Source: Victivallis lenta (GTDB taxonomy: Bacteria; Verrucomicrobiota; Lentisphaeria; Victivallales; Victivallaceae). Taken from it: a DNA stretch of 64,000 nt. A program made the position numbers and the translations under genes. Of the stretch, positions 31,547 to 37,529 are shown in pieces. The number at the start of each line of letters is the position of its first letter. Position 1 is the stretch's first letter. The notes under the pieces are model-generated. The model was not told the DNA's origin. It searched no databases and saw only the letters and a program-made list of their open reading frames with translations. Where the stretch lies: contig NZ_VUNS01000002.1 in the NCBI RefSeq assembly GCF_009695545.1, positions 1-64,000 on the forward strand, read 5' to 3'.

Positions 31547-32161
31547 ATGACGCCGGAGGAGAAAATATTCCGCCCGTCGGAAGAGGAGCCGGAGGCCGCT
31601 GAAGCAGCCTCCGTTTTTTCCGCCGCGCCTCACGGCCGCTCCGGCCTCATCAACCTTGCCGGATTCGACGACGAGTCGATCACGAACGGCCCGGGGCTCC
31701 GCGCCGTGGTTTACGCGCAGGGGTGTCCGCACGGCTGCCCGGGCTGCCACAACCCGCAGACGCACGCCTTCGGGACCGGCCGGGACTGCACGCCCCGGGA
31801 GCTCTTCGAACGCATCCGCCGCAATCCGCTGGTGAGCGGCGTGACTTTTTCCGGCGGCGAGCCGCTTTCACAGCCCTCCGGCTTTGCGGAACTGGCGGCA
31901 CTGCTGAAGGAGACCGGCTACGAGATTGCGATCTACACCGGCTACCGGTTCGAGGAGCTGCTGAAGATGCGCAACCCGGCCGTCCGCCGGCTGCTTGAGC
32001 AGGCGGACGTCCTGGTCGACGGCCCGTACCGCGAGCGGGAACGCAACATTCTGCTGCGCTTCCGCGGCAGCGCGAACCAGCGCATCCTGAACCTCCCGGC
32101 CTCCCTCAAAGCCGGCCAGGCCATCCTGATGCCTCCCGGCCGCTGGCGCGAAAACGCATAA
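31547..32161 (+). CDS. nrdG: Anaerobic ribonucleotide reductase-activating radical SAM protein
   Basis: A 204-residue radical SAM activase. C60-x3-C64-x2-C67 (CPHGCPGCHN) binds the 4Fe-4S cluster and GVTFSGGEPLSQP binds S-adenosylmethionine. It installs the glycyl radical on NrdD, encoded one base upstream. ATG 31547 is preferred; the open frame extends into nrdD. The N-terminal 33 residues before INLAGFDDESITNGPG are acidic and longer than in most NrdG. The closing ILNLPASLKAGQAILMPP is the typical C-terminus. Confidence 0.92.
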   Translation: MTPEEKIFRPSEEEPEAAEAASVFSAAPHGRSGLINLAGFDDESITNGPGLRAVVYAQGCPHGCPGCHNPQTHAFGTGRDCTPRELFERIRRNPLVSGVTFSGGEPLSQPSGFAELAALLKETGYEIAIYTGYRFEELLKMRNPAVRRLLEQADVLVDGPYRERERNILLRFRGSANQRILNLPASLKAGQAILMPPGRWRENA

Positions 32162-32187: not shown

Positions 32188-32798
32188 ATCGAGAAGGAGG
32201 GAAATTTGAGTGATGCTCAAATTTCCCTCCTCTCACACCACCGGACGTACGGTTCCGTATCCGGCGGTTCCGAAGTTCCATCGTCTTTGCTGTAAATGCT
32301 GTGTTGTTTGATGCACCATAGATACCCCCATACCTGCCGGGCATGTCTCTTTCGACGGCTTCAGGAATCCTCACCTGAATTTCTGCTTCCCCACAACTTC
32401 GAAAATACAGTCTTGATTTTCCTTCAGCTCGGTCCTTTGTGCATTGCCACACTACTATGACCTCTGCTGACTTCTGCGCCCTCATCACACGACATCACTG
32501 CCGCATTAGCCTAAGCTAGAGCGCAGATCTCCCCAAACAATGCGCACGACTTTCACATTTATGCCCGTCCGATCTACATGAAACGTTTCCGGACAGGTTT
32601 CGGACTTTGATGATTGTGGCCATCTCATCCATGTCTCATGCCTATTATCGGCTTCCTGTTCGTCGGGCCAATGCTTTGCTATGGACTTCCTTCAGATTCC
32701 GGCTCGCGGCGGACACCCTTACCCAGTCGCTGTAGCCTTCTCCCTGTTGGGCGGCTTCGGAACTTTCACCCGTTAGTCGTGCGCCCTGCCGGGCACAC
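32188..32798 (-). ncRNA. Group IIC (bacterial class C) intron ribozyme without intron-encoded protein
   Basis: On the minus strand the element begins GTGTGCCCGGCAGGGCGCAC at 32798, the typical IIC 5' end. It then shows the class C core landmarks GGGTGAAAGTTCCGAAG, GGGTGTCCGCC, GGAATCTGAAGGAAG and CAGAAGTCAGCAGAGGTCAT, in the order known from the Oceanobacillus iheyensis intron. Domain V lies at about 32229-32271 and contains AACCGCC, TACGGAACCGTA and GGTGGTGTGAGAGG. Domain VI is a 15-bp perfect hairpin (32196-32230), and the 3' end is CTCGAT at 32188. At 611 bases there is no reverse transcriptase; domain IV holds only a ~110-codon remnant frame. The insertion point is three bases after the T-run of the prepilin terminator hairpin, exactly the target type of this class. 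Confidence 0.88.
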
Positions 32799-32801
32799 CA
32801 C

Positions 32802-32832
32802 AAAACGGCAGAACTTTCAGCTCTGCCGTTTT
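32802..32832 (-). terminator. Intrinsic terminator of the prepilin cassette (bidirectional symmetry)
   Basis: AAAACGGCAGA (32802-32812) pairs with TCTGCCGTTTT (32822-32832) around a 9-base loop, 12 bases past the last gene of the cassette. On the minus strand the stem ends in TTTT. On the plus strand it ends in TTTTTT and could stop transcripts leaving nrdDG as well. It is the insertion target of the adjacent group IIC intron. Confidence 0.82.
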
Positions 32833-32844
32833 TTCCGGAAACAA

Positions 32845-35800
32845 TTACAACAGATCAGCGTTGTAATTCCTGGATTCAAGAAACTCAATGTTCCTTACCT
32901 TGATCTTACCGGTGGCAGGATTCCGGTCAAATGTAACGAGAATCTTCATTTCACCGGTAATATCATCGAAATATATTCCTTTCGAGGAATTCAGATCGAA
33001 TGTGCCATACTTGGCATCATGTTTAACCAAATTACCGTCCGAATCGAGCCGATACACCAGGCCGTCCACATCCTGAATCGTCTGAGCAATGATGACCGCC
33101 TGAAACGTCGTGAGAGGTGCGGGACCGGCTTTCATCAGATTCATGACCTTACCAGCGACTTCCTCTTTCTCACGATCCGTATCCGCATCACTCGGAATCA
33201 GCACTTTTCCTCCGCCGACCCGGGTCTGTCGGAGAATTTCGGATCTGGCCAGAAGTGTATCTGTCATTCCTCCAACCGCATTTAGAATATCCATGAGATT
33301 TGTATACGGCGTACTTGCAATCGTCAAGTCATATTCACCGCGCCAATTCGCCTCTGTATCCTGCAGCATGGCGCCAAGCCAATACGCATTATCCTCTATC
33401 GGGAATGCGCTTCCTTCGGTTTTCAACATATTCCAGTCGATTTTGCCGTAGGACCGCGCTCTATTGCCAAGCTTGACTTGATCCAGAATCGCTCCGTCAC
33501 CATCATAGTACGAGGTTCCGGCCACGTTATTACCCGCATTCCACTGCGGGTCCATATGATCTTCAATCGGGAACGTATCCCCATCCGCCGTCGCCGATGC
33601 ACTCCCGACTTTAGCAGCATTCTTCAGGTTGATCGTCTGCCACTGCGCCGCCCGGTGAATCGCCCCGAGTTCCCAAAGTGAGAGCATCGGCTTATTCCGA
33701 ATATAGGCAGTGGAGAGATGCCCGATCACTTTACCGCTGGAGTCCGTAGTGGACTTGGCATCATCACGCCAGGCTGGGTCCGTCACCAATTCCGCATCTC
33801 CGTCGGACGCTTTACCGGACGGATCCGCCTCTTTGTTGACCAACCCATGATCGAGAGATTCGGCAAATGTCACTTTCGTCAAGTCAAGATTCATCGTCAG
33901 TAAGTTCGTCTCATCGTACCCGAGTGAATTTGAACCGGCAACTACCGAAAGGTCATATTCAACCCAGTTAATGTCCGCCAACGGGCTCCAATCGCTTTCG
34001 CTCGGACTTCCAGGATTGAGCTTCGCAAACAGATTCTGGCGCGGGTCCCTCGCCTGCATGCCAGCAATCACCAGCTTCCGGAATTCCGGTTCGAGCGCAA
34101 ATGAATCATCCGCCATCGGAATGGCTCCATCCGTAACTTTCTTGGTAAATAATTGCTTAGCCGGCAATGTGATCACATCACTCCAACGGACAAAATCGGC
34201 ACCGGTCAGCTCCCCCGTAGAACCGCCGTCCGGACCAGTCAGCACAATTCCATTGACCTCAAAAGAAGCCTCGACAATATCAAAATTGGCCTTAAAATCA
34301 GTGATTCCGGTGATGGCGGCACCTCCCGTTTTCTCCTGTAGCACCTGGGCAAAATCCAATGTGGCATTCAATTCCGGCAGAGTCTTGCTGGCGATCAGGT
34401 AACCGTCTTTCCAAAGGGTTGAGGTACATTCAATTTCTTCGGTAAACGGAACAGTCGCCAATGTGAACTCCTGCTCCTTTTCAAAGTCAGCTGAAGAACC
34501 AGCCGGGGGATTGAAACTAACTTTTCCCGTGCCCTTGATTTTCAGTTTGATTGTCATCGCTTTCAGATGAATGAGCAGCTTATAATTGTCCGAACTGGTC
34601 TTCGCATAAATATTGATCAATTCACCGATCATCTCCGGGGTAATCGTGACGTTGACCTTCAAATCCTTGCCATTGGCACCCGTCAACGTCGGATTGATAT
34701 CCAACCCGATGGCAAATTCATTGATATAAGGGGTCTTCTCATTGCCAGTATATTCCGGGAAAGCGCCTCCGGAGATAACATTGTTCTTCCATTCGGAAGC
34801 CGGCACATCCGAAGTCGGGACCGAATCTTTATCACAATAATCGATGATATTCGCCGCAATCTGCTTGCGCCGGAATTCTAATGTCGTAAACCCCCCCTTG
34901 TCCGAACCGATCATATTCAGAAAACGCAGACCGGAGGTCAGCGGCGAGGCCGCATCCTTGTCCGTAACATCGAACGTAGTACTGTTACGGAATTCGACCG
35001 GATCCTTCATCAGCTCCTGCACTGCCGCATCCGAATTCAGCTCGACACCATTCAAGGAAGTCCCCTCGAAGTCACCCCAATCATCCCTGTTCATATTGAA
35101 ACGATGATAATATCTGCGCACCAGTTCCCCGGAAGTACCGTCAACAGCCGATTCGAATACCTCCATCTCGCCCGGCCAAATTCCGTCATCAAACCAACGC
35201 TTCAGCCACTTCGTTTTTTTCATCTCTTCGGTTGTCCACTCCGACGCCCAGCCTTGTCGAAAAATATCGAGAGTCGGCGCCAGAGAACCAATGATTGTCT
35301 CAGGCTTCGTCGTCCAGAACGACAGCGGCGTATTACCGAGCGGAACTTCTTCGATCGAACCATAAAGCGGATCCGTCGCCGCTGGATTCTTCATGTCCAG
35401 CACCTGATGCAGATTGATACGGCTGTCGGACCGCGGCGGCAAAACACGATATGCATAACGACCAATGATCCGCCGGTCATCCCCGCTCATGCCGTTATCA
35501 ACAAAAATCCAATCCGGTTTACGCTTCTCATCCCCGGAAACGCCTTCCAGATCCGCATAAAACTGATCGTCCGAATCCTGTACTTTATCGGCATCGGGGG
35601 TATGGTCGAAACGAATCCGCTGATAAGCAGGCAACTCCACATCAAGGGTATCAGCAATGCTTGATTTGGTCTCCGTGTCATCTTTGATACTAATATCGTC
35701 ATCACTGCGCTTTTCGTAATGACTGACGATTGTCGAGAGATCCGACACAATGATGTCATCGGTACCGGTAGAACCATCATTCGTTTTTCTGGAATTACCA

Positions 35801-36024
35801 AGATTATACTGGTACAGCATCACAGCCCCGGCGACCCGGTTGATCGCGCCGAGCGCCAGCACTTTCGCCTGGCTCCGGCTACTGTTATTATAAGCCACTT
35901 TCCGGGATATCACCGAATTGGTGACGAAGGCAAGTCCCAGAATCATCAGAAGCGAAAGAATCCCCAAAGCGAAAAGCAGGGCAATTCCACGCTCCCGGAT
36001 TCGTTTGTCGGTTTGGTTGTTCAT
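32845..36024 (-). CDS. Large prepilin-like protein (Verru_Chthon cassette protein A-like)
   Basis: A 1059-residue protein with one N-terminal hydrophobic helix (GIALLFALGILSLLMILGLA, residues 13-32) followed by a polar helix, in the style of PilX/GspK minor pseudopilins (RGIALLF start). The remainder is a large soluble, mostly beta-rich and acidic region without recognised domains, presumably outside the cytoplasm. Size, N-terminus and its position as last gene of a four-gene prepilin cassette resemble family Verru_Chthon A of Verrucomicrobia/Lentisphaerota (from memory). It might cap a pseudopilus as GspK does. Codon use is more AT-rich than the housekeeping genes. A terminator follows. Confidence 0.68.
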   Translation of the reverse strand: MNNQTDKRIRERGIALLFALGILSLLMILGLAFVTNSVISRKVAYNNSSRSQAKVLALGAINRVAGAVMLYQYNLGNSRKTNDGSTGTDDIIVSDLSTIVSHYEKRSDDDISIKDDTETKSSIADTLDVELPAYQRIRFDHTPDADKVQDSDDQFYADLEGVSGDEKRKPDWIFVDNGMSGDDRRIIGRYAYRVLPPRSDSRINLHQVLDMKNPAATDPLYGSIEEVPLGNTPLSFWTTKPETIIGSLAPTLDIFRQGWASEWTTEEMKKTKWLKRWFDDGIWPGEMEVFESAVDGTSGELVRRYYHRFNMNRDDWGDFEGTSLNGVELNSDAAVQELMKDPVEFRNSTTFDVTDKDAASPLTSGLRFLNMIGSDKGGFTTLEFRRKQIAANIIDYCDKDSVPTSDVPASEWKNNVISGGAFPEYTGNEKTPYINEFAIGLDINPTLTGANGKDLKVNVTITPEMIGELINIYAKTSSDNYKLLIHLKAMTIKLKIKGTGKVSFNPPAGSSADFEKEQEFTLATVPFTEEIECTSTLWKDGYLIASKTLPELNATLDFAQVLQEKTGGAAITGITDFKANFDIVEASFEVNGIVLTGPDGGSTGELTGADFVRWSDVITLPAKQLFTKKVTDGAIPMADDSFALEPEFRKLVIAGMQARDPRQNLFAKLNPGSPSESDWSPLADINWVEYDLSVVAGSNSLGYDETNLLTMNLDLTKVTFAESLDHGLVNKEADPSGKASDGDAELVTDPAWRDDAKSTTDSSGKVIGHLSTAYIRNKPMLSLWELGAIHRAAQWQTINLKNAAKVGSASATADGDTFPIEDHMDPQWNAGNNVAGTSYYDGDGAILDQVKLGNRARSYGKIDWNMLKTEGSAFPIEDNAYWLGAMLQDTEANWRGEYDLTIASTPYTNLMDILNAVGGMTDTLLARSEILRQTRVGGGKVLIPSDADTDREKEEVAGKVMNLMKAGPAPLTTFQAVIIAQTIQDVDGLVYRLDSDGNLVKHDAKYGTFDLNSSKGIYFDDITGEMKILVTFDRNPATGKIKVRNIEFLESRNYNADLL

Positions 36025-36046: not shown

Positions 36047-36841
36047 TTAATTGACCGTTTCAGTGATATCATCGAAAAATACCGTCCGGACAAAAGTCCG
36101 CTCGTTCTGCTGCAAAAATTCAGCCCGGCGCTCTTTTTGATCCGCATTGCTCGCCGGCATCTGCTTCCAGATATCGAAGCTCTTCTGATCTAGCATATAG
36201 AGCTTAACTTCCACCAACTTGGGAACCCTCTCCGTCGTCGTATCCGGAGGATTTACTGACGGTGAAGTACGCCGATTATCTGGATCGGCAATGGTGAATC
36301 CAGTCACCCGTTCCGCCACAATACTACCATCTACACTACGAACAGTACTCTCCAGATCCGTAGCGGAATCATTCATGCTCGCATATCCGCCCGTAGAGCC
36401 AAAAGCACGAAAATAGCTTTCGTATTTATTAGTTAAATCGTTGCTGCATAGAGTGCGGACTATCAGCGTATTATCTGTACCGTCCATTGAAAATCGAACG
36501 GCGCGCACCCGGTCACCGCCACCGACATTCGATGAAGTTTTGGTAAAAAAACAGATGGCATCATTCTTGCGGTTGTTATCTGCATCACTATAGTCGCCGT
36601 AAGTGATGACAAACGGCAAGTTCTTCTCCGTCGAAACCTGCGACTGCAGCAGATTCGTCACAAGATCCATCGCCACACGTCCATTCGCATAGATGTCGTT
36701 TCGCTTTTCCATTCCGGTCCAGACCCGCTGGGCTCCAACGAAAAACTGCAACATCATCGCCAACATGATAACAAAAACCGCCATGGAAACCAGCAGTTCA
36801 ATCAACGTAAAACGCTGTTTCCCGAATTTTTTCCTGCTCAT
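36047..36841 (-). CDS. Type II secretion/type IV pilin-like minor prepilin (Verru_Chthon C-like)
   Basis: A 264-residue protein. QRFTLIELLVSMAVFVIMLAMM (residues 9-30) is a textbook prepilin signal: basic leader, then F+1-T-L-I-E+5 and a hydrophobic helix. After cleavage and N-methylation by a prepilin peptidase (not in window) it would join a pseudopilus. The domain after the helix (QRVWTGMEKRNDIYANGRVAMDLV) resembles GspJ/PilW-type minor pilins and Verru_Chthon C. It lies 22 bases upstream of the large A-like gene and just 1 base after the B-like gene. Confidence 0.78.
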   Translation of the reverse strand: MSRKKFGKQRFTLIELLVSMAVFVIMLAMMLQFFVGAQRVWTGMEKRNDIYANGRVAMDLVTNLLQSQVSTEKNLPFVITYGDYSDADNNRKNDAICFFTKTSSNVGGGDRVRAVRFSMDGTDNTLIVRTLCSNDLTNKYESYFRAFGSTGGYASMNDSATDLESTVRSVDGSIVAERVTGFTIADPDNRRTSPSVNPPDTTTERVPKLVEVKLYMLDQKSFDIWKQMPASNADQKERRAEFLQQNERTFVRTVFFDDITETVN

Positions 36842-36842
36842 A

Positions 36843-37529
36843 TTAAAATACCCCGTTATAAGTGGAATTGATTGCGGGAGTCAGTTGGAAGGTCGGATTA
36901 AAGATATCCAGAACAAACAGGCGCCTTTCTCGCAAGTAGTCGCTGCCCTTCTTGTACGGAACATCGGCCGGCCAGCTCAATTCAAGGTAGACCAAGCGCT
37001 CATAATTGTCTGAAACAGCAAGTGTTCCCCGCGTATAAGGAGCGCCCGCCTGAGCCCAATCACGGTACTCGATCTTCACATCCTCGGCCCATAATCTGGC
37101 TTCTGCGCTGAAGTCAACAACTTCCTCATCGTTGACAAAACTCTTCTGCTCATACCGGAATACATCGCCGCTGGGAGAAAGCAGAAGATTGTCGAAACCG
37201 GAGATACTTTCAAATGAATCGGAATCGATATTCTTTTCGTTTCGATTGTCAGTGTCCTTCAAACCTCCGATCAAACCGGAAGACATATTCAACGGTTTGC
37301 GGAAGTCGTCATTGATCCGCATCTGAACATACCCGAGTAAATATTCCGCCACATCCGCAGTGTTGTTGTCTGCAATCGCCGCCTTGTTCGCATTGATACC
37401 GACCGGAAACAGTACCATAATACTGGTAATACCGATGCCGATCACAGCCAGCGCCAACGCGACCTCAACCATATTGAAGCCGTGTTTCACATAACGTTTT
37501 TTCATGATTGAATATACTCCGCTCTTCAT
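36843..37529 (-). CDS. Prepilin-like protein (Verru_Chthon B-like, GspI/PilV type)
   Basis: A 228-residue protein. GFNMVEVALALAVIGIGITSIM carries the prepilin site (G-1, F+1, E+5) and hydrophobic helix, followed by VLFPVGINANKAAIADNNTADVAEYLLGYVQ. This LPVG-like extension after the helix is typical of Verru_Chthon B. It is translationally coupled (ATGA, 37526-37529) to the preceding prepilin gene. A second ATG at 37505 would give a shorter leader of nine residues; coupling favours 37529. Function is presumed in a pseudopilus. Confidence 0.76.
   Translation of the reverse strand: MKSGVYSIMKKRYVKHGFNMVEVALALAVIGIGITSIMVLFPVGINANKAAIADNNTADVAEYLLGYVQMRINDDFRKPLNMSSGLIGGLKDTDNRNEKNIDSDSFESISGFDNLLLSPSGDVFRYEQKSFVNDEEVVDFSAEARLWAEDVKIEYRDWAQAGAPYTRGTLAVSDNYERLVYLELSWPADVPYKKGSDYLRERRLFVLDIFNPTFQLTPAINSTYNGVF

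Follow-up and report, generated by a model that had tools for sequence, protein, structure and literature searches.

The intron and its insertion site

The window analysed here is a stretch of 64,000 nucleotides (64 kb) from the genome of Victivallis lenta. At 32188..32798, on the minus strand, it carries a group IIC intron of 611 nt (GUGUG...GAU) without a reverse transcriptase (RT). The element was delimited with the use of Rfam models and by alignment with an RT-bearing relative, G315. On the minus strand, it begins at 32798 with GTGTGCCCGGC (starting GTGTGCCC) and ends at 32188 with CTTCTCGAT (ending CTCGAT). The original prediction had named the object and its coordinates exactly; the strand, which it left unstated, is the minus strand.

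Reading along the minus strand, one meets the end of a GspK-like gene at 32845, a stem-loop followed by TTTT, the triplet GTG, and the intron. The upstream gene (32845..36024, minus strand) encodes a GspK-like pseudopilin recognised by a weak N-terminal match only. On the other side of the intron lies nrdG (31547..32161, plus strand) in convergent orientation. The 5′ exon is formed by the intrinsic terminator of the GspK-like gene, a stem-loop with TTTT (32802..32828, minus strand; stem CGGCAGA...TCTGCCG). The T-run ends at 32802, and the intron therefore starts 3 bases beyond it, just as had been claimed for the terminator of the prepilin gene. The terminator is a known target of class C introns (Miura et al. 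PMC8919778), and the relatives whose 5′ flank can be read likewise begin, for the most part, directly behind T-run terminators. The 5′ exon ends with IBS1 (UUGUG; 32799..32803, minus strand), 5 nt that pair with EBS1 (CACAA; 32614..32618, minus strand) in a loop of domain I, at the same position as the EBS1 loop of the relatives. By direct reading the match extends over 5 bp, and we estimate the chance of such a match at about 1% or less.

The terminator stem (window positions 32802-32832) has T-runs on both strands, with TTTTTT on the opposite strand, and could serve both convergent units. The long hairpin of domain VI (D6) was also considered as a plus-strand 3′ end for nrdG, and no evidence for this role was found. 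Upstream of the GspK-like gene, at 36047-37529 of the window, there are two small prepilin-like genes with weak matches to Verru_Chthon cassette B and C. An empty site was not found in congeners, where the GspK-like homologues are 35-44% identical and are never adjoined by nrdG.

Fold, class and branch point

The Rfam scan of the whole 64-kb window gave exactly two matches above the curated cut-offs, and both are located at the intron. The main part of domain I (32542..32713, minus strand) matched RF02001 with 136.1 bits (E 5.9e-28). Domains II-III together with the start of domain IV (32432..32509, minus strand; conserved AGAAGTCAGCAGAGGTCATAGTAG) matched RF01998 with 60.9 bits (E 1.8e-08). 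In a 1-kb scan, domains V and VI (D5-D6) matched RF00029 slightly below its cut-off (37.9 bits vs. 40, E 1.1e-05). All three matches lie on a single strand and in the expected order, which bears out the earlier claim that the class C landmarks follow one another in order. Domain V (32237..32268, minus strand) is fully paired and has a CGC triad at 32264-32266, a 2-nt bulge and a GAAC loop, whereas domain VI (32190..32234, minus strand) forms a near-perfect long hairpin. The element thus has domains I-III, V and VI in the order of a group II intron, together with a GUGYG start and an AY end. Compared with shuffled sequences, the fold is more stable with z of -4.2 for the whole intron and -7.5 for D5-D6.

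The structure of domains I-III was predicted from an alignment of eleven relatives, and the same alignment was then used for the test of base pairs. At the 89 consensus pairs, 94.6% of the cells were paired as compared with 79.5% after shuffling, a value reached in 0 of 500 shuffles. Changes on both sides were observed in 50 of the 89 pairs, and the signal was lost when the partner was slid. Despite the use of one alignment for both prediction and test, the size of this covariation effect leaves no doubt about the structure of domains I-III. The window copy keeps 85 of the consensus pairs and the RT-bearing relatives keep 81 to 89, while two decayed copies from G133 keep 70 and 68 (19 and 21 broken). 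The RF02001 score of the window copy is also within the range of the RT-bearing copies.

The CGC triad in domain V is a mark of group IIC, and the insertion directly behind an intrinsic terminator is characteristic of the same group. The RTs of the nearest RT-bearing relatives point the same way, as they fall with class C RTs. The RT of the related intron from G006, named a group II RT/maturase by NCBIfam, scored 446 bits with the GsI-IIC RT, 379 bits with the 7uim RT, and 138 bits with LtrA. The G315 RT shares 60% identity with an Azoarcus IIC RT and about 47% with the G006 RT. These data support the group IIC identity of the window intron.

Comparison and folding showed that the branch-point position in domain VI (32194, minus strand) is occupied by U instead of the bulged A. 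The relatives read CCTACTCGAT at this place and the window copy reads CCTTCTCGAT. In the 19 distinct D5-D6 sequences whose 3′ end could be read, the branch base is A in 17, U in the window copy, and G in L102. The decayed G133 copy c41 has an apparent U too, but was left out of this count on account of its deviating end. In the folded structure a bulged U takes the place of the bulged A seen in G315 and in the Citrobacter copy. The bulged adenosine of group II introns, a usual but not universal feature, is therefore missing. The original prediction of 611 bases, an intact domain V and no RT stands on all three points; what it lacked is that domain VI has no branch-point A.

On their own, IIC introns splice almost exclusively by hydrolysis, while branching and mobility need the protein (Smathers and Robart 2020, PMC7161350). 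Plant organelle introns without a bulged A also splice by hydrolysis (PMC4513849). Since branching of IIC introns requires the RT, splicing of the window copy would be hydrolytic at most. Judging from its sequence, it is possible that the copy may splice as a ribozyme in this way alone. Its immobility is expected from two independent losses, those of the RT and of the branch-point A.

Loss of the reverse transcriptase

An RT is absent from the intron itself and from the window. Among 198 genomes of the class that were searched, G315, a member of the same order but of another family, proved to carry an RT-bearing intron of 1883 nt. It is about 80% identical to the window intron over nt 1-277 and in D5-D6. 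Domain IV of the window copy (32271..32451, minus strand) is shortened to about 181 nt as compared with about 1450 nt in G315, and the RT coding part is gone. Within it, the stretch 32357..32437 (minus strand) is homologous to the leader of the G315 RT (local score of 24.5 vs. 11.1, sd 2.2, for shuffled sequences; 0/500). The second half of domain IV matched the 3′ part of the G315 domain IV no better than shuffled sequences (70/500 equally good), and consequently the right-hand deletion breakpoint could not be located. The existence of the RT-bearing G315 form and the retained leader RNA support a deletion inside domain IV as the cause of RT loss. Such a deletion had been proposed earlier on the basis of a remnant frame; the frame itself proved unlike an RT, as none of three frames scored above shuffles against the G315 RT and NCBIfam gave no match.

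The genome (5.55 Mb, 78 contigs, 99.9% complete) was searched as a whole for RVT_1 proteins, and none were found. A DNA search of the genome gave one intron copy, and a second weak match turned out to come from the opposite strand of the D6 hairpin. Likewise, there is one RF02001 match and one RF00029 match genome-wide. Full-length RT-bearing copies or other short copies are absent from the genome. With neither an RT/maturase of its own nor an RT relative in the genome, the window copy does not qualify as a mobile group II intron. The earlier suggestion that a related protein could mobilise it in trans is contradicted, as far as a protein of this genome is concerned, by the lack of RVT_1 and of a second intron sequence, and by the lost branch-point A. 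Draft assemblies of relatives carry intron pieces at contig ends and none lie at the contig ends of this genome, which makes an unassembled multicopy RT-bearing intron in the strain unlikely. An RT-bearing intron may reside on a plasmid missing from the assembly. Close copies were not found among viral contigs and phage records.

Origin of the window copy and comparison with known introns

We consider it likely that the window copy is a stranded, recently immobilised deletion derivative, left behind a terminator and now in early decay. A group IIC intron would have entered the pseudopilin gene's terminator by reverse splicing, with the terminator and the EBS1-IBS1 pairing, both of which are observed here, as its guides. 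The RT would have been removed by the deletion in domain IV, before or after insertion, and the branch-point A in domain VI would then have changed to U. The latter change probably followed the insertion, because IIC introns move in the form of a branched lariat RNP, which is dependent on the RT (PMC7161350). We infer both the age of the insertion and the order of events. In a genome without RT the copy is no longer mobile; its core is nearly intact, so hydrolytic self-splicing may persist when read-through transcripts arrive. Located behind a terminator and between convergent genes, the intron is probably seldom transcribed, with no visible selection for splicing.

When domains I-III were compared with those of G315 and two G133 copies, 15 changes specific to the window copy were found, 7 at unpaired and 8 at paired positions. 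Three of the paired changes break a pair and five leave a standard pair; no double compensation was seen among them. In the two G133 copies, 30 and 33 specific changes were counted, with 10 and 8 pair breaks. In the tree, from which G315 was left out, the window copy is on a short branch beside the long G133 branches. The pattern is that expected of a younger copy in slight decay; given the small numbers, weak constraint may be compatible with it as well. Two points speak against a relic: the well-kept core (85/89 pairs, RF02001 score) is also expected under constraint, and the D6 hairpin is unusually perfect.

In a rival reading, the intron would be a working IIC ribozyme restricted to hydrolysis, which excises itself from read-through RNA. 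We regard this as unlikely. The absence of RT would make the branch-point A useless and its loss would cost nothing, and the kept pairs, the intact D5, the conserved J2/3-domain III stretch and the EBS1-IBS1 match all agree with such a ribozyme, but the three broken pairs and the lack of a double compensatory change among its own substitutions do not. Although protein-free hydrolysis of IIC introns (PMC7161350) and the plant organelle introns without a bulged A (PMC4513849) provide precedents, at a non-coding site behind a terminator splicing would bring no visible benefit. An orphan IIC ribozyme that still splices hydrolytically in its host although RT and branch-point A are both gone would be a splicing-only RNA; for this we see a rather small chance.

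It is also quite improbable that the intron was already RT-less when it was inserted, having been mobilised in trans by an outside RT, supplied by a mobile plasmid or by a resident intron that has since been lost. This route has been demonstrated for the ORF-less introns of Thermosynechococcus elongatus, which multiplied in trans after an ORF had been deleted (PMC2882425), and proteobacterial plasmids carry, at different terminators, RT-less IIC introns that are homologous in domain IV. The genome studied here, however, has no RT and no second copy, the branch-point A is lost, and the domain IV of the window copy was found in no other genome searched. A chance mosaic or a misidentified repeat is refuted by three Rfam models that match significantly and in order, and by the 80% identical RT-bearing relative.

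The window copy, which we thus hold to be a stranded derivative, most likely belongs to a known group, the RT-less bacterial group II introns, and is not a new kind of element. It has in common with the mobile IIC introns GsI-IIC and Ta.it.I1 the domain order, the CGC triad, the terminator target and the EBS1-IBS1 pairing, and differs from them in the absent RT, the shortened domain IV and the change of the branch-point A to U. According to a 2015 review, ORF-less introns are rare in bacteria and nearly always have an RT relative in the genome, with C.te.I1 named as the sole exception (Zimmerly and Semper, PMC4424553). The latter intron from Clostridium tetani splices in vivo (PMC3919590). It resembles the window copy in lacking both an ORF and an RT relative within its genome, and in having hydrolytic splicing as the relevant route. 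However, C.te.I1 has been set beside IIB1 introns, is located within a surface-layer gene and has demonstrated splicing, whereas the window copy is a IIC intron behind a terminator, present once, devoid of the branch A and at most a candidate for splicing. The T. elongatus introns, like the window copy, lost the RT by a deletion in domain IV and kept a remnant of the leader, but they are multicopy and are driven in trans by resident RTs. With our finding, the rare orphan RT-less introns include a IIC member whose branch point is naturally substituted. It also offers a small test object for the question of whether IIC introns that have lost their protein can survive through hydrolytic splicing or simply degenerate.

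The proteobacterial plasmid introns mentioned above (L136:2382-3065, L152:1502-2183, L153:1502-2183, L154:1502-2180) were found in Citrobacter freundii, Pseudomonas alcaligenes, Aeromonas caviae and P. putida, each at a different terminator. They share with the window copy the IIC class, the lack of RT and the insertion at terminators. They are about 680-690 nt long and, unlike the window copy, occupy several sites and keep both a conserved non-coding domain IV and the branch-point A. Over nearly the full length, including about 230 nt of non-coding domain IV, they are 78-80% identical to the Citrobacter copy. They look like an RT-less lineage moved in trans, which may merit separate study more than the window copy does. 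On the Pseudomonas plasmid pHD6515-VIM, two IIC introns are joined head to tail, the second (L138:2504-2600) beginning immediately where the first has its 3′ end.

G133 carries three decayed IIC relatives of the window copy (L034, L035 and L036), and these were the only exact matches in a pattern scan of GTDB genomes. Two of the three have apparent remnants of an RT N-terminus in domain IV. An RT fragment from the same genome, L110, was considered as their driver and rejected, since its AGC-type D5 and 25% RT identity place it in a different class. In G150, the copy with the branch base G (L102:520-1056) has a large internal deletion that fused domain I to the RT C-terminus, and domains II-III are gone. 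Finally, L105, L107 and L169 (from G197, G215 and G325) correspond to at most nt 1-227 of the window intron, at its 5′ end, with 82-85% identity; they represent 5′ fragments, with no domain V downstream within the fetched stretch.
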